Assembly (NCBI GenBank): GCA_017428805.1
Contig: JAFRQC010000157.1
Span: 1-5,720 of the forward strand
Direction of reading: 5' to 3'
DNA: 5,720 nucleotides
Source of the DNA: Prevotella sp.
GTDB taxonomy: Bacteria; Bacteroidota; Bacteroidia; Bacteroidales; Bacteroidaceae
Part shown: positions 1-5,720 of the stretch, piece by piece
Position numbering within the stretch: position 1 is the stretch's first letter
How the letters are laid out: every line of letters begins with the position of its first letter
The notes under the pieces: generated by a model
The model's database searches: none
Told to the model about the DNA's origin: nothing
The model's input: the letters and a program-made list of their open reading frames with translations, nothing else
Made by a program: the position numbers and the translations under genes

Positions 1-1326
1 GAGATTGTGCTCAGGCCGATTGACGGAACGACGACCATCAAGTCGCACACGTTTATCCAGATGGAGGCAGGCAAGGGTTCTGTAGAATTCCCGAAGAGCG
101 CATTGAAGAAAGACCCTGGGGATCCGACGACGTTTACGGATATCCGTGCGATCCTTCAGAGTATTCCCGCAACGGTGAATGAAAAGGTTACTGCCATCAA
201 TAACGTCATCACTGCCCTCAAGGCAGATATTGATGCCTATAACGCCATTTCGGGCGAAGGCGATGACCTGGTGAACAAGCAGGAACAGTGTATCAAGTTC
301 GCCGACATCAAGACTAAGGGCTGTCAGGCCACGGCCGGCACGCTGCAGGATACTGACGCAGTCTTCACCTGGACGGATGCATTAAAAGATGTGGAGCTTT
401 TAAAAGAGGAAGACGAGGTGATTCAGAACTTGATTAAAACGTCAGTTTCGGTGGAAATAACAGAAAAGCCCAAATCTACAGATGACTGCTATAAGGATAA
501 TGCCAAACCCAAAAGAAATTTCCAAAATGATTTGGCAGAATGGGAAAAATATGCAAATTATTATTTGACAGAACTAAACAAGCCAAAGAACGAGGAGAAC
601 CGGGTGAGGGCCGACAAGCGCAAGACCCTTGTGGATTGTGCCAATAATCTGGCAAAGTCTTTCTCAGACCTCTATAACGTATTCGATGGTATCAACAACC
701 TTGCGAATCTGAAGGACTGTCCGAATACTGTCACTCAGACAAACAAGGACAAGGGTCTTGAGGGCGTGAAGAAATACAAGGATTTTGTCACAGCTACCGA
801 CAGTGCCTTGTTTGATAAACTTTATAAGCATGATGTGGCAAAAGATACGGATCTCACCCAGCCGTTAGGTGATGAGGTTAAGAAACGCTGGAGCAGGAAG
901 GCCATCCATCACTTCATGAGCCAGGTGTGGAATGATGTCAATGCCGAGTTTAAGGATTCGATTGCCATGGTGGCTCCTTTATTGCTGGGAGATGTGATGG
1001 ATGATGCACAGTGGAAGGCATCTGTTGGTGGATGGTTTAACGATGTGCAGCCGGTAACTGACGCGAAGTCTCAGATTGGCGGGTTTACCAAGGATAAATT
1101 CGTAGCGATTAGAGATCACTGGAAAGAAGAATACATTGATCCCTGGATAGATGCGACTGTCAACCGGCGTCGTTGGCAAACGGGCGTTCAGGGTAAGATC
1201 CTCCTGTCAGACTCTCCTGGAACGACCATCAGATTTGAGAAAGACGGTTCAACCTATCAACAGGTGAATGCACTGGCTTCCAATAAGTATATCTATGATT
1301 TGAGAGATTATCTAAAAACATTCTAA
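1..1326 (+). CDS. Partial gene (3' part): large mostly helical protein with beta-rich ends, probable spike- or hub-associated
   Basis: The frame is open to the left edge, so this is the C-terminal 441 residues of a longer protein; the GTG at 7 is probably internal rather than a start. Numbered from the first codon in the window, residues 1-32 alternate hydrophobic and polar residues (TTTIKSHTFIQMEAGKG), like the last turns of a VgrG/gp5-type beta-helix. Residues about 45-395 are mostly charged and helical, with a tryptophan-rich part (KRWSRK, QVWND, GGWFND, DHWKEE, DPWID, RRRW) near the end. Residues 398-441 return to short strands (GKILLSDSPGTTIRFEKDGS) before a final helix. I recognise no enzyme motif. 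The stop lies three bases before the next gene, so the two are probably translationally coupled. It could be the C-terminal extension of a spike or hub protein, or cargo carried by one. That role is inferred from the neighbours, chiefly the DUF4280 gene. Bases 421-600 have unusually low G+C. The coding call is secure; the function is not. Confidence 0.8.
   Translation, partial: EIVLRPIDGTTTIKSHTFIQMEAGKGSVEFPKSALKKDPGDPTTFTDIRAILQSIPATVNEKVTAINNVITALKADIDAYNAISGEGDDLVNKQEQCIKFADIKTKGCQATAGTLQDTDAVFTWTDALKDVELLKEEDEVIQNLIKTSVSVEITEKPKSTDDCYKDNAKPKRNFQNDLAEWEKYANYYLTELNKPKNEENRVRADKRKTLVDCANNLAKSFSDLYNVFDGINNLANLKDCPNTVTQTNKDKGLEGVKKYKDFVTATDSALFDKLYKHDVAKDTDLTQPLGDEVKKRWSRKAIHHFMSQVWNDVNAEFKDSIAMVAPLLLGDVMDDAQWKASVGGWFNDVQPVTDAKSQIGGFTKDKFVAIRDHWKEEYIDPWIDATVNRRRWQTGVQGKILLSDSPGTTIRFEKDGSTYQQVNALASNKYIYDLRDYLKTF
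421..600. other. Low-G+C patch inside the first gene
   Basis: By hand count, G+C is about 34-35% in each of the three 60-base lines here, against about 52% at 241-300 and 55% at 601-660. The reading frame stays open. The encoded piece (window codons 141-200) is rich in Lys, Asn, Glu and Tyr, for example EWEKYANYYLTELNKPKNEE. This suggests a segment acquired or exchanged by recombination, or simply a fast-evolving surface loop. Confidence 0.6.
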
Positions 1327-1329
1327 AGT

Positions 1330-3315
1330 ATGGCAGATACGGTATTTAGTGATTGGCTGTCGGCATTGTCGAATCTTCAGGCCAGTGTGTCGAAGGATCT
1401 TTCGGAGATCCGGAAGCAGAAGGCTGAGATACAGCAGTTGAAGTCTGAGGTGTTCAACAGGGTTGCTCAGGGGAAGTATATCCGTGACGACCAGCGGCTG
1501 GTGCTTTCAGCACCGGAGATCGTCATCGGTAACGTAGACGCCTCAGGTATCCTATACAATGAGGGTGGTACTATCACGCTTCGCGGTCAGCGGGTAGCAC
1601 TGGAGGGCGTCGGTGAGAATGGTATCATTGACAGCCGTGCTGCTACTGTCTCTCAGATAGCCGTTGATCCGGGTCCTGACGGGATTGAGGAGGTGGTCAG
1701 AAACCGTTCGGCCGTCATCAGTCAGGCCAAGCATATCACTCTTCAGAGTAATGATGCTGAGAAGGATGGCTATTTCGCCTGTATGCCCCAGACGGTGGGG
1801 TCAGCCGGTGTGCGTATCCATGCCGACGAGTGTATAGAGATAGATGCCGCCGTGTCTTCTGAGTCACGTTCGGCACAGATAGGTGACCAGTTGAAAAACC
1901 TGAGCAGCGCCGTGACGAGCCTGACACTTGACTCTACCAGTGCCATGGCTACAGCCACCACGCTGGTAGGCGAGATGGAGGCGTTGATGGTCTTGCAGGA
2001 TCCGCTGAGTCTGGACGAGGTGACCATGCGCACCACAGTGACGGAACTTGATGATCTGACAAATCAGTTCAATAGTCTCATGCCGTCGGTCTATCGGGCA
2101 TTGGAAAGGGCTGTCGCCTCGATGTCAAAGTTGGCAGAGACGAACCGCAGGATCAAGGAATTGCAGAAAGAACAGACGAAGCTGGCTGCCGCCCAGGCCA
2201 CATTCAAGGATAAGAGTACGGATGCCGTGCTGCGCGTGAATGCGGAGCAGATGTTCTTCAAGTCGGTTGACGGCGACGGGAATATTCGTACTAATCCCGA
2301 AGCTTCCATCCATGTGCAGACGGGTAAGTTCGACTTGACAACGATGAAATCCGACGGTTCGCTGATTGATGACAGTCATGTGCGTATAGCAACCCACGAC
2401 GTGAGCATCTCGACGGTGAATCCTAAACTGAATGATGACGGGACTGCTGACTATACGACTGAGGGCAGTGTGTCGGTGGCCTCGAAGGACGTTTCCTTTA
2501 CGGCCGTGGACTATAGTACCGATAAGGTGAACGCCCAGACGAAAGACAGCCTGTTCAGTGTCAGGATGGAGAATATGTCGTTTATTTCGCGTGATGTAGA
2601 TGGTAATAGTACAGGCAACTTCTGTGTATTGGCAGAGAATGAAATTCATCAGTCGTATGACAAAGACGGCAATGCGACAGGCAGTTTTGACGTACTGGCC
2701 AAGGATATGCAGTTGTCAGCAGAGGACAAGGAAGGAACCGCTATCGGCAGTCTGACAGTAAAGACAGAGAACATGGTATTGGCATCTACAGACAAGAGTG
2801 GCAAGGCCGTAGGACAGTTCATTCTGAACAGTAAAGATGTCTTCGTGAAGTCGATGGATGCTGATGACAAGGGAGCCGACAAGAGTCTCGCTGCTGGCGG
2901 TAACATGGTACTTGTGGCAGAGAAGATGTTCGTGGGTCGCACTGACAAGGACAATACCAGCAAAGAGTTGCAGCTGTCCTCCGACAAGACAGGTATCTAT
3001 GGCAAGACGACTACCGAGATACAGCAGGGCGAGGCCAAGGCTGTGGTGCAGCTCGACGGCGGCAACGTGGCTATTGGCGGCTCGAAGGCTGAGTTCTATG
3101 GCGACAACACCATCAACGGCAAGAGCGATTTCAAGGCTGACGTGACGATGAAGAAGCTGACTGCCGACAATATCGAGGCGAAGACCTCGTTCAAGAGTAA
3201 GAACATCAGTGACGGCATCGCCGTGCCGGGTGCTCCATCCTCGGCTAAGCTGAGTGCGAAGCTGAAGGAGGCTGATGCCCCCAAGGCGAAGGACGTGAAC
3301 CATGATGATAAATAA
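1330..3315 (+). CDS. Beta-repeat needle/spike-like protein with coiled coils
   Basis: A 661-residue protein with no signal peptide. Residues 17-47 are a heptad-like coiled coil (EIRKQKAEIQQLKSEV). Residues 55-175 are beta-rich (LVLSAPEIVIGN, GTITLRGQRVAL, HITLQSND, VRIHADECIEID). Residues 185-298 are helical with a Glu/Lys-rich stretch (TNRRIKELQKEQTKLAAAQ). Residues 298-545 hold about ten degenerate strand-turn repeats. Residues 563-625 resemble the tip-proximal ends of phage and VgrG spikes (VVQLDGGNVAIGGSKAEFYG, then DVTMKKLTADNIEA). Residues 635-661 are a flexible Ala/Lys/Asp tail. The order coiled coil, strands, helices, beta repeats suits an elongated, probably trimeric shaft. A DUF4280 spike-tip gene lies two genes downstream, which supports a needle role in a contractile injection apparatus. 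I see no VgrG OB-fold or gp27-like hub signature, so it is not an ordinary VgrG. It starts three bases after the upstream stop, without a Shine-Dalgarno site. The gene is certain; the needle role is inferred from fold pattern and context. Confidence 0.85.
   Translation: MADTVFSDWLSALSNLQASVSKDLSEIRKQKAEIQQLKSEVFNRVAQGKYIRDDQRLVLSAPEIVIGNVDASGILYNEGGTITLRGQRVALEGVGENGIIDSRAATVSQIAVDPGPDGIEEVVRNRSAVISQAKHITLQSNDAEKDGYFACMPQTVGSAGVRIHADECIEIDAAVSSESRSAQIGDQLKNLSSAVTSLTLDSTSAMATATTLVGEMEALMVLQDPLSLDEVTMRTTVTELDDLTNQFNSLMPSVYRALERAVASMSKLAETNRRIKELQKEQTKLAAAQATFKDKSTDAVLRVNAEQMFFKSVDGDGNIRTNPEASIHVQTGKFDLTTMKSDGSLIDDSHVRIATHDVSISTVNPKLNDDGTADYTTEGSVSVASKDVSFTAVDYSTDKVNAQTKDSLFSVRMENMSFISRDVDGNSTGNFCVLAENEIHQSYDKDGNATGSFDVLAKDMQLSAEDKEGTAIGSLTVKTENMVLASTDKSGKAVGQFILNSKDVFVKSMDADDKGADKSLAAGGNMVLVAEKMFVGRTDKDNTSKELQLSSDKTGIYGKTTTEIQQGEAKAVVQLDGGNVAIGGSKAEFYGDNTINGKSDFKADVTMKKLTADNIEAKTSFKSKNISDGIAVPGAPSSAKLSAKLKEADAPKAKDVNHDDK
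2221..2964 (+). repeat. About ten degenerate 22-30-residue beta repeats within the needle-like protein
   Basis: Protein-level repeats, residues 298-545, with a loose consensus of G-x-hydrophobic-x-V-x-A-x-(D/E)-M/V-x-hydrophobic-x-S-x-D-x-D-G-x-x-x. Clear copies begin near residues 378 (EGSVSVASKDVSFTAVD), 406 (DSLFSVRMENMSFISRDVDG), 429 (GNFCVLAENEIHQSYDKDG), 451 (GSFDVLAKDMQLSAEDKEG), 473 (GSLTVKTENMVLASTDKSG) and 495 (GQFILNSKDVFVKSMD). The copies at 429, 451 and 473 are each exactly 22 residues long; outer copies carry longer turns. Each unit reads as two strands and an Asp/Gly turn. The DNA copies have diverged strongly, so the array is old rather than recently expanded. Confidence 0.75.
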
Positions 3316-3326
3316 TGATGTAAGAT

Positions 3327-4040
3327 ATGAAAAAAGCGATAGAAATACTCATCCGGGAGTTGGATAGTAAGTTGGGCGGGTATGCAGCTCTACTGAACTA
3401 CCGTTATCTGAACCTTTGTGTGAAGGCTGAGCCTGTAGCTCTGCTCCCTGTTGTCATTGAAGATAAGGACGGGGACACCCAACATGTTGAGGACGTAGCC
3501 CGTACCATGCTCATCAACCAGTATCAGTTTGAGGTCATCCCCATGGATCAGGATATGGTATTCAACATATGCAAGGGGTTCCTGACTCATCATCCAGAAT
3601 TCAAGCAGGATGTTGTCATATCGACGGAAGACCACAAGTTATATCGGGATATAGAGAACGAGAAGCATATTATCCTGACTGTTCCTGAGGTGAATGAGGA
3701 TCGCCGTGATTTCCTTTTGGAATCAGTGAAGATGCTTTACGACCAGTGTAAGGTTCAGGTGGATAAAACGAATGCAGCCTATGCCGCCAAGTTGGCTGCA
3801 AAGGTTGTCGGACAGCCGGAGGATGTGGTCGAAGAATCCAAAAATAAACTGGAAGAAAGCCAGCAGATGTATTCCGACATGATTGACAAATATCTGGCAG
3901 CCAAGCAGAAGGAGATTGAGGAAGCCTACCAGCGCTATCTGAATGAGCAGAGCATCAAGAAGGCTAAAGCCGACGAGACGGCTGCTGCCCGTGGCGAGCA
4001 TGCAGGCTATCGGATGCGTGTAGGAGATACTGATGAGTAA
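3327..4040 (+). CDS. Ribosome recycling factor-like protein lacking the rRNA-binding arginines
   Basis: A 237-residue soluble protein without signal peptide or membrane segment. Read against remembered RRF sequences (about 185 residues), it is colinear with both RRF domains. Residues 66-86 (YQFEVIPMDQDMVFNICKGF) match the domain II stretch, [20 protein letters not shown] in E. coli. Residues 115-145 (IILTVPEVNEDRRDFLLESV, later CKVQV) match [20 protein letters not shown] followed by ARVAV. Residues 150-199 then form two long helices ending KYLAAKQKEIEEA, as in RRF domain I. RRF next has the VRNVRRDA block, which includes Arg132, needed for ribosome binding; here it is VDKTNAAYAA, with no arginine. 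About 50 extra residues are split between a loop near 95-112 and a charged tail from 200. Canonical RRF splits post-termination ribosomes with EF-G; this copy is unlikely to do that and is probably a paralogue with a new role, such as adaptor, chaperone or structural part. An unrelated helical protein with chance similarity remains possible. The start follows the previous stop by 11 bases; an A-rich leader is present. Confidence 0.6.
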   Translation: MKKAIEILIRELDSKLGGYAALLNYRYLNLCVKAEPVALLPVVIEDKDGDTQHVEDVARTMLINQYQFEVIPMDQDMVFNICKGFLTHHPEFKQDVVISTEDHKLYRDIENEKHIILTVPEVNEDRRDFLLESVKMLYDQCKVQVDKTNAAYAAKLAAKVVGQPEDVVEESKNKLEESQQMYSDMIDKYLAAKQKEIEEAYQRYLNEQSIKKAKADETAAARGEHAGYRMRVGDTDE

Positions 4041-4060: not shown

Positions 4061-4447
4061 ATGGGAAATTTTGTAACGATGGGAGCAATGCTCCAGTGTA
4101 ATCAGGGAATGGCACCCTGCTCGTTGATTGTGACCGTGCCGCTGCGCCCGAAGTGTATGAACATGCTGATGGCAACGACAATGGACTTCACACCGGCTAA
4201 CATTCCGACCTTCGGCATGTGCCGTTCGATGGCCAATCCGACGGTCTCTGCCGCTACATCAGCCGCCATGGGCGTGTTGACGCCGATGCCGTGTGTGCCG
4301 GTAATCCCGGCTCCCTGGGCACCGGGCAGTGCAATGGTGAAAGTGATGAACATGCCGGCCCTGACCAACAATAGTAAATGTATGTGCACCTGGGGTGGCC
4401 AGATATCCATCACCAGTCCGGGTAACACGATGGTGCAAGGGAAATAG
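4061..4447 (+). CDS. DUF4280 family PAAR-like spike-tip protein
   Basis: A 128-residue protein with the full length and layout of the DUF4280 family. It opens with VTMGAMLQCNQGMAPCSL, continues with the central FGMCRSMANPTVSAATSAAM and GVLTPMPCVPV, then PWAPGS, and ends with MPALTNNSKCMCTWGGQISI and a final SPG turn. DUF4280 is related to PAAR, the small cone that sharpens VgrG-type spikes and often carries effectors; in Bacteroidetes it accompanies type VI secretion spike genes. There are seven cysteines, at 13, 20, 32, 54, 78, 107 and 109, some of which could bind a metal at the tip as PAAR proteins do. It has no effector extension, so any cargo would be bound non-covalently or fused to another spike part. 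It sits 20 bases after the RRF-like gene; the leader is AT-rich with AAGGA at 4054-4058, too close to the ATG for a normal Shine-Dalgarno. Family assignment is strong; which type of particle it caps is open. Confidence 0.9.
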   Translation: MGNFVTMGAMLQCNQGMAPCSLIVTVPLRPKCMNMLMATTMDFTPANIPTFGMCRSMANPTVSAATSAAMGVLTPMPCVPVIPAPWAPGSAMVKVMNMPALTNNSKCMCTWGGQISITSPGNTMVQGK

Positions 4448-4481: not shown

Positions 4482-4484
4482 GTG

Positions 4485-5471
4485 ATGAAGAAAAGTATCG
4501 TAGGCTTGCTGATGGCTTGTCTGTCGGGGACTGCCAGCGCACAGTACATTCCGGCTTACCAGCCGGACTCCTTTGCTGTGAAGGCTGCGGATGTGGTCTA
4601 CTGGCACAAGGGTAACCTGCTGAAGCATCTGGAGGTGTCGTTGACGGTGGGAACGTCGGGCGTCGGTATCGACCTAGCCGTTCCGCTTTCGCAGTACGTA
4701 CAGGTGCGTGCGGGCTATGACTACATGCCCCCTTTCAAAAAGACGTTTAGTCACAAGGTGCTTGGTAATGGTAAGGAACCTGTAGCCTACGACGCGAATC
4801 GCAACCGCCAGGAGACTCCCTTCAACAGGATTTCCGAATACTATTACAAGCAGCACGGCTATGAGTTGCAGGATCATGTCGACCTGAAGGCTAAACTGAC
4901 GATGAGCAACTTCAAACTGTTGTTCGACGTCTATCCGCTGAAGTACAACAAGAGTGTGCATATCACGGCGGGCGTCTACATCGGACCATCCCAGTTTGCC
5001 AAGGTAAACGAGGCTGATGGCCAGACGGAGATGATGGATGCCATCCTGACCTATAACAAGGAGTACAGGGCGGCTACCGACGGCTCCCTGAAGGACATGG
5101 GCCTGTTGTCGATCCAGATGGGTAACTACTCGCATAACTTCCAGCAGGGTGACAAGCAGCGACTGATGAATGCCGCCTACGAGATGGAGCCGACAGCCGA
5201 AGGCAACGTAGAGATCCTATGCACGTCGAACAGCATCAAGCCCTATCTGGGCTTAGGCTATGGCGGTCTGCTTTCCCCGAGCCGTAACGACTGGAAGATC
5301 ACGGTGGAGCTGGGTGCGATGTTCTGGGGCGGTACGCCCACGATGAGAACCCATGACGGTACGGACATCACCAAGGATGTCAAGGACTATCCTCACTCGA
5401 TCACGAAAATCGTGAAGGCCCTGAAGGTCTATCCTGTACTGAGTGTGAGGATTGCCAAGACATTGTTCTAA
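4485..5471 (+). CDS. Exported outer-membrane beta-barrel protein, function unknown
   Basis: A 328-residue protein from the ATG at 4485. A GTG three bases upstream is in frame, but ATG gives the better signal peptide: MKKSI, a hydrophobic core, then TASA cut before Gln20. The mature part has alternating amphipathic strands typical of an outer-membrane barrel: LEVSLTVGTSGVGIDLAVPL and YVQVRAGYDYMP near the start, NFKLLFDVYPL and VHITAGVYIG in the middle, IKPYLGLGYGG and ITVELGAMFWGG later, and LSVRIAKTLF at the end, with the terminal phenylalanine expected of BAM-assembled barrels. Residues about 85-130 and 170-245 look like long polar loops. It resembles small porin-like or OmpA/OmpW-like barrels of Bacteroidetes, but I cannot name a family. 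It follows four genes with cytoplasmic or injected products, so it may be the envelope partner of the particle (dock, exit port or protective factor), or an unrelated operon member. Five heptad repeats precede its start. Confidence 0.85.
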   Translation: MKKSIVGLLMACLSGTASAQYIPAYQPDSFAVKAADVVYWHKGNLLKHLEVSLTVGTSGVGIDLAVPLSQYVQVRAGYDYMPPFKKTFSHKVLGNGKEPVAYDANRNRQETPFNRISEYYYKQHGYELQDHVDLKAKLTMSNFKLLFDVYPLKYNKSVHITAGVYIGPSQFAKVNEADGQTEMMDAILTYNKEYRAATDGSLKDMGLLSIQMGNYSHNFQQGDKQRLMNAAYEMEPTAEGNVEILCTSNSIKPYLGLGYGGLLSPSRNDWKITVELGAMFWGGTPTMRTHDGTDITKDVKDYPHSITKIVKALKVYPVLSVRIAKTLF

Positions 5472-5487
5472 CCCAAAAGCGACCTGT

Positions 5488-5720
5488 ATGAGACGAATCC
5501 TGACCTTACTCCTGTTGACCGGACTTCTGATACCAGCAATGGCTCAGAAGATCAGTGTCGAAGGGTTTAAGAAGGTCAAGAAGGATTTGTTGAATCAGAC
5601 TCCCCTGCCGGTGGACAAGACGCAGGCGACGATGGATTTCCTGACCGACGAGAAGGGATTCACGTTCAAGGCCGATGGCAAGGTAGACGTACAGCCCGAG
5701 GAGGCAGACGGAAAGATTAC
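5488..5720 (+). CDS. Partial gene (5' part): exported protein, possibly of the PEGA-containing Bacteroidetes type
   Basis: The frame opens at ATG 5488, 16 bases after the barrel gene's stop, and runs off the right edge after 77 codons. The first 19 residues form a signal peptide (MRRILTLLLLTGLLIPAMA) with an Ala-x-Ala site before Gln20, the same layout and cut position as in the barrel protein. There is no lipobox cysteine. The mature start, ISVEGFKKVKKDLLNQ then DEKGFTFKADGKV, resembles from memory the N-terminal part of Bacteroidetes periplasmic proteins that later carry PEGA domains (often FxxxxxDLxAxT, then GFTF). That match is weak, and the PEGA region itself would lie outside the window. 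It probably acts in the periplasm or at the outer membrane alongside the barrel protein. No Shine-Dalgarno site is visible. Confidence 0.75.
   Translation, partial: MRRILTLLLLTGLLIPAMAQKISVEGFKKVKKDLLNQTPLPVDKTQATMDFLTDEKGFTFKADGKVDVQPEEADGKI

Follow-up and report, generated by a model that had tools for sequence, protein, structure and literature searches.

The window analysed here, a stretch of 5,720 nucleotides from the genome of a gut or rumen Prevotella, encodes a protein with the fold of ribosome recycling factor (RRF) within a predicted type VI secretion system (T6SS) cluster. We propose that this RRF-like protein, hereafter RRFL, is probably a diverged RRF paralogue that has left translation and now acts as a dedicated accessory of the T6SS spike, such that an old fold of the translation machinery seems to have been co-opted as a dedicated component of this weapon. 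If this is true, a core translation factor fold has become part of a contractile injection machine, and a single genome encodes ten copies of it. A previous sequence-only reading, in which an RRF fold had been recruited beside spike genes, is supported by the fold, the loss of arginines, the presence of a separate normal frr gene, and genetic linkage.

RRFL has the fold of ribosome recycling factor

The open reading frame at 3327-4040 was recovered as previously described, with the segments FEVIPMDQDM, VPEVNEDRRDFL, VDKTNAAYAA, and KQKEIEE all present, and of the 11 bases out of 5,720 that differ between the window and the genome assembly, none lies within the RRFL gene. The product matched the Pfam RRF family (PF01765) with an E-value of 4.2e-11 and a score of 43.4 bits against a cut-off of 29.7, with RRFL residues 33-197 aligned to positions 12-163 of the 164-position profile. 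When an AF2 model of RRFL (pLDDT 92.3, pTM 0.82) was compared to the PDB using Foldseek, 26 matches were obtained at E <= 0.001, all 26 of which were RRFs (best E 8.8e-12); VIA, like Foldseek, ranked RRFs first. The model and the structure searches indicate that the RRF fold spans both domains, bearing out the expectation of a two-domain protein with RRF as its best match in both profile and structure searches. The only families returned by a Pfam scan of RRFL at E <= 1 were RRF, ARGLU, and Val_tRNA-synt_C. The gene and its features are as follows:

3327..4040, + strand: RRFL, 237 aa, ATG start (Pfam PF01765, AF2 model, Foldseek)
3399..3431, + strand: YRYLNLCVKAE, residues 25-35, the helix-1 end plus hinge, highly conserved among RRFLs (hinge from the helix limits of the model)
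3417..3692, + strand: approximate domain II (beta), residues 31-122 (within 36-118 the model has strands and helices)
3591..3605, + strand: HPEFK, residues 89-93, conserved across RRFLs
3702..3704, + strand: R126, a canonical arginine, conserved in 90/90 RRFLs (alignment with canonical Frr)
3762..3773, + strand: DKTN, residues 146-149, at the site of canonical RNVR (both R positions mostly lost in RRFLs)
3927..4037, + strand: C-terminal extension past the canonical RRF end, residues 201-237 (disordered at its end, pLDDT < 50 for 229-237)
4014-4022, + strand: short motif MRV, residues 230-232, within the C-terminal extension

RRFL has diverged from canonical Frr

Canonical ribosome recycling factor (Frr) has the same fold and belongs to the same Pfam family as RRFL, but RRFL differs from it in its lost arginines, its acidity, its C-terminal extension, its HPEF motif, and its ten copies beside F1 and vgrG genes in the window's genome (G000). 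Against the NCBIfam frr equivalog (TIGR00496), RRFL scored 18.4 bits, under the cut-off of 149.1, and its mean identity to canonical Frr of related genomes was 19% (n=14; the G000 protein and 13 others, one of them from G610, a genome without RRFL). In canonical Frr, conserved arginines serve rRNA binding. Frr positions 65, 131, and 134 are arginine in 14/14 canonical sequences versus 0/90, 0/90, and 2/90 RRFLs, and the proposal that the arginine block at the last two positions had been replaced thus holds across the RRFL family. Over the shared core, net charge averages -12.6 in RRFL versus +0.3 in canonical Frr. In a tree built from 45 of the 90 RRFLs (every other sequence) and the 14 Frr, the two groups fell on either side of a 100/100 branch. 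Judged by these sequence features, RRFL is predicted not to be a working Frr.

The window's genome contains ten RRF-like genes, including that of the window. The Pfam RRF model detected nine of the ten, eight of them over the cut-off, with C195 falling below it at 23.7 bits. A separate normal frr, which the sequence-only reading had called for, was found in G000 on a different contig (222 bits) as well as in 13 of the 15 other genome handles with RRFL (14 of 16 when G610 is counted), two of which, G424 and G696, are apparently one genome. RRFL is also encoded in isolate records, namely those of Prevotella sp. ne3005, Xylanibacter ruminicola D31d, and Parabacteroides distasonis An897. In two public records (P0007 and P0067) RRFL genes are named ribosome recycling factor, which should serve as a warning for users of this annotation.

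VgrG and F1 are the fixed neighbours of RRFL

RRFL had been placed between a needle gene and a DUF4280 gene. The DUF4280 gene is present in the window, and the reading frame at 1-1326 is corrected to the 3' part of vgrG. The neighbouring genes are:

1..1326, + strand: VgrG, 3' part, full gene 1239 aa (OB domain PF04717, E 1.8e-17 for the full protein)
1330..3315, + strand: F1, 661 aa, coiled coils and an extended beta region, the constant neighbour of RRFL
4061..4447, + strand: DUF4280 PAAR-like tip protein, directly after RRFL (PF14107, 102.5 bits, E 2.4e-29)

In G000, an F1 gene adjoins 10/10 RRFL copies, and vgrG was found at nine, at one of which (L025) it is split into two ORFs; the tenth copy lies at the end of the examined stretch with its vgrG side cut off. 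We extended this comparison to named Bacteroidales records, in which the best 80 of 83 relatives represent 79 distinct loci. As RRFL itself was used to find them, these loci are a non-random sample, several of them from one genome. F1 was present within 6 kb at 78/79 of these loci and VgrG within 9 kb at 74/79, in keeping with the prediction that homologues would lie beside spike genes rather than scattered. At four of the five loci without VgrG (L036, L069, L076, and L096) the sequence begins inside F1, and the fifth (L037), which has neither F1 nor VgrG, is on a contig that stops 590 bases past the RRFL match. The gene directly upstream of RRFL within 200 bases is F1 at 62 loci, DUF4280 at 7, and none of the modelled families at 10.

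DUF4280 was found within 3 kb of RRFL at only 20/79 loci. It was thus rejected as the fixed partner of RRFL, the expectation that it would regularly accompany homologues failed, and a general role for RRFL in tip loading is left unsupported by its absence near most copies. The fixed partners of RRFL are VgrG and F1, not DUF4280.

The F1 model (pLDDT 83.3) contains helices at 178-289 plus beta parts, and gave nothing at E <= 0.001 in Foldseek. F1 was considered as a VgrG-like spike and this was rejected, as VgrG chains appeared in Foldseek at E 0.26 and 0.40, VIA matches fell mainly on the helical part, and a comparison with the VgrG profile was weak (probability 11.5, E 0.0026). Since F1 has no recognised fold, its assignment as a spike part is itself putative.

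A phage or plasmid origin was likewise rejected: 17 pattern matches in viral contigs included no relative, and phage and plasmid records gave no match at E <= 1e-5.

RRFL marks a distinct group of T6SS clusters

Together, the window's cluster encodes a ClpV/ClpB-like ATPase, TssC (334.8 bits), TssD/Hcp, VgrG, F1, RRFL, and DUF4280, with a gp25-like TssE farther on, and by this gene content we assign it as a T6SS cluster. With the T6SSiii of Bacteroidota it has in common TssC (PF17541), TssD/Hcp (PF17642), VgrG, a ClpV/ClpB-like ATPase, and a gp25-like TssE, and TssC, Hcp, VgrG, and a ClpV-type ATPase all occur in a single cluster, as is characteristic of T6SSiii. The ATPase is named by context, as it matched best to ClpB and scored below the NCBIfam ClpV cut-off (494 versus 885 bits). 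Unlike T6SSiii, clusters of the RRFL type have a separate TssC group, carry F1 and RRFL, and lack a detected TssN.

To place these clusters, we analyzed 301 genomes of the family. TssC was present in 23 of them, and its 24 matches fell into three classes by score: 737-759 bits (9), 419-441 bits (9), and 335-353 bits (6). At E <= 1e-12, RRFL was matched in seven genomes, one of which (G610) was dropped as its 48.8-bit match is its normal frr. RRFL and F1 occur in the same 6/301 genomes, and these are exactly the genomes with the third TssC class; one of them, G614, also has a TssC of the first class. In a TssC tree of 30 rows, all of them ORFs checked against the TssC profile, 12 rows of the RRFL lineage lay on one side of a 100/100 branch, with the program warning of long branches between groups. 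Six of these 12 came from the sample and six from named loci, of which L084 is probably from the same genome as G424. TssN (PF17555) scored over the cut-off in 9/9 first-class genomes, 0/9 second-class genomes (G636 at 24.6 bits, below the cut-off), and 0/5 genomes with only the RRFL type. As TssN also went undetected throughout the second class, its lack in RRFL-type clusters may reflect sequence divergence. Among 395 genomes of the phylum, and likewise among 393 of the order, RRFL was found in G000 only (E <= 1e-15).

Three genetic architectures are described for human gut Bacteroidales T6SSs in PMC4714493, where a putative Prevotella stercorea T6SS emerged in a second pass and, among Prevotella, only P. 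copri and P. stercorea were kept. PMC10781749 describes more diverse organisations across the phylum, with tssN nearly ubiquitous. RRFL may be used to recognise a separate T6SS lineage of rumen and gut Bacteroidales.

RRFL is a candidate adaptor or chaperone of the VgrG-F1 spike

DUF4123 and DUF1795 are T6SS adaptor or chaperone families. Like these and DUF2169, RRFL is encoded by a small gene linked to vgrG, here also to a PAAR-like gene. DUF2169 proteins are chaperones for VgrG-PIPY spikes with a reportedly novel fold, according to PMC11883445, and we regard them as the closest functional analogue of RRFL. Unlike DUF2169, RRFL has an RRF fold, and it had no Pfam match to DUF2169, DUF4123, or DUF1795 at E <= 1. 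DUF4280 or IglG PAAR-like proteins, of which one directly follows RRFL in the window, are treated in PMC5014421, and a B. fragilis DUF4280 protein is mentioned in PMC11854122. In the retrieved portions of the open-licence PMC literature, including that on T6SSs of Prevotella, the rumen, and Bacteroidales, no RRF-like part of a T6SS or VgrG was found.

It is plausible that RRFL serves the VgrG-F1 spike as an adaptor or chaperone, and genetic linkage to its own VgrG, a mark of T6SS adaptors, was observed. RRFL would stay in the cytosol, with one copy for each VgrG island, and would use newly conserved residues at the helix-1 end and hinge and in the HPEF loop to bind the VgrG-F1 spike. N29 (86/90 RRFLs) and C31 (88/90) are family-specific; H89 and E91 are present in 90/90 and P90 in 89/90, with HPEFK absent from the G000 Frr. 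The alignment around Frr R30 is unsure, as this residue falls opposite C31 in one alignment and at a gap in another. Conservation suggests that N29, C31, and HPEF could form a shared surface. RRFL might hold or assemble the spike before baseplate loading and perhaps help place a tip or cargo, and a partner may dock onto the [hydrophobic][R/K][hydrophobic] motif of its flexible C-terminus. The tail motif [MLFI][RK][LMFVW] was found in the last 16 residues of 39/80 relatives, compared with an average of 4.2 over 500 shuffles (maximum 10), and in the preceding 24 residues of 3/80; as the pattern was widened once tails had been seen (narrower patterns gave 18/80 and 16/80) and the relatives are not independent, this enrichment is suggestive.

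Across 72 triads, RRFL divergence correlated with that of VgrG in its spike region (r 0.87), gp27-like part (0.85), C-terminal part (0.82), and OB domain (0.57), and with that of F1 in its coil (0.78), first beta part (0.77), and, lowest, C-terminal part (0.34), with shared descent of linked genes and differing rates confounding these values. Such correlated divergence is no proof of contact and would fit RRFL as a cognate VgrG-F1 spike adaptor or chaperone.

A more specific possibility, which we hold tentatively, is that RRFL is an obligatory assembly or recycling factor for spikes of a distinct Bacteroidales T6SS lineage with an RRF-like action. The hinged, tRNA-shaped RRFL would then load, hold, or dismantle VgrG-F1 spikes as RRF does ribosomes, and every VgrG island would supply its own matched copy. 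RRFL makes spike assembly in its T6SS lineage testable.

Less likely, RRFL could be a structural spike or baseplate subunit that is kept in the fired particle, where it might, for example, link VgrG to F1 or keep F1 against the hub. That RRFL is almost always linked to VgrG and F1, and co-occurs with them, would agree with this, as would the distance correlation with the VgrG hub and spike regions, but two domains with a flexible acidic tail look more like an adaptor than a symmetric spike subunit.

It is improbable that RRFL still works on the ribosomes of its own cell, for example by tuning translation of the long vgrG-F1 operon. In addition to the RRF homology, equivalents of Frr P105, R111, and K179 are retained in 90/90 RRFLs, and K33 is present in 88/90 at a position shared equally by R and K in canonical Frr (7/14 each). 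With R111 in 90/90 and R112 in 34/90, some residual RNA or ribosome contact is possible. No normal frr was seen in two RRFL-bearing MAGs, G612 (88% complete) and G698, probably due to incomplete assemblies. Against such activity stand the loss of the other conserved arginines, the acidic core, the failure to reach the frr equivalog cut-off, and the normal frr in most genomes.

Action on the ribosomes of a target cell, with RRFL as a delivered effector mimicking RRF, looks unlikely, and we give it very little weight: the fold and the position in a spike operon would suit an effector, but RRFL accompanies nearly every VgrG-F1 pair observed rather than some (among 79 loci found via RRFL), its conserved arginines are gone, and its charge is strongly negative. 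It is equally doubtful that RRFL is mainly regulatory, tying spike islands to adjacent STAS and SpoIIE partner-switch genes. These lie within 8.5 kb at 32/79 and 37/79 loci, respectively, but neither is found at 38/79 (some stretches being short) nor in the window's stretch, L021, although RRFL is present in these places.

Other genes in RRFL-type clusters

The protein encoded at window positions 4482-5471, 329 aa long, begins with what looks by eye like a signal peptide and has a weak outer membrane protein match (CarO, E 1e-4, far below the cut-off). It is followed by a PEGA-domain protein (PF08308; window 5485-5720, L021:15700-17064) with relatives at 39-41% identity in 3/4 other clusters compared. 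Beyond the 3' end of the window, the T6SS cluster encodes a ThiF/E1-like protein (L021:17068-18198; PF00899, E 2.3e-51), relatives of which were present at 52-63% identity in 4/4 other clusters compared. Between Hcp and VgrG (L021:7263-7802) lies a gene for a 179-aa protein that matched nothing in Pfam (E <= 0.1) or NCBIfam; it occupies the same place in many loci. In G000, an AraC-type HTH protein (L021:3854-4405) lies between a 154-aa gene and TssC; it was not seen at that place in L118, L120, or L121. The VgrG-F1-RRFL islands at L022, L028, L029, and many of L031-L109 are flanked by genes for STAS proteins and SpoIIE phosphatases, some of which include Cache-type sensor domains, and it is possible that a partner switch is tied to these islands.
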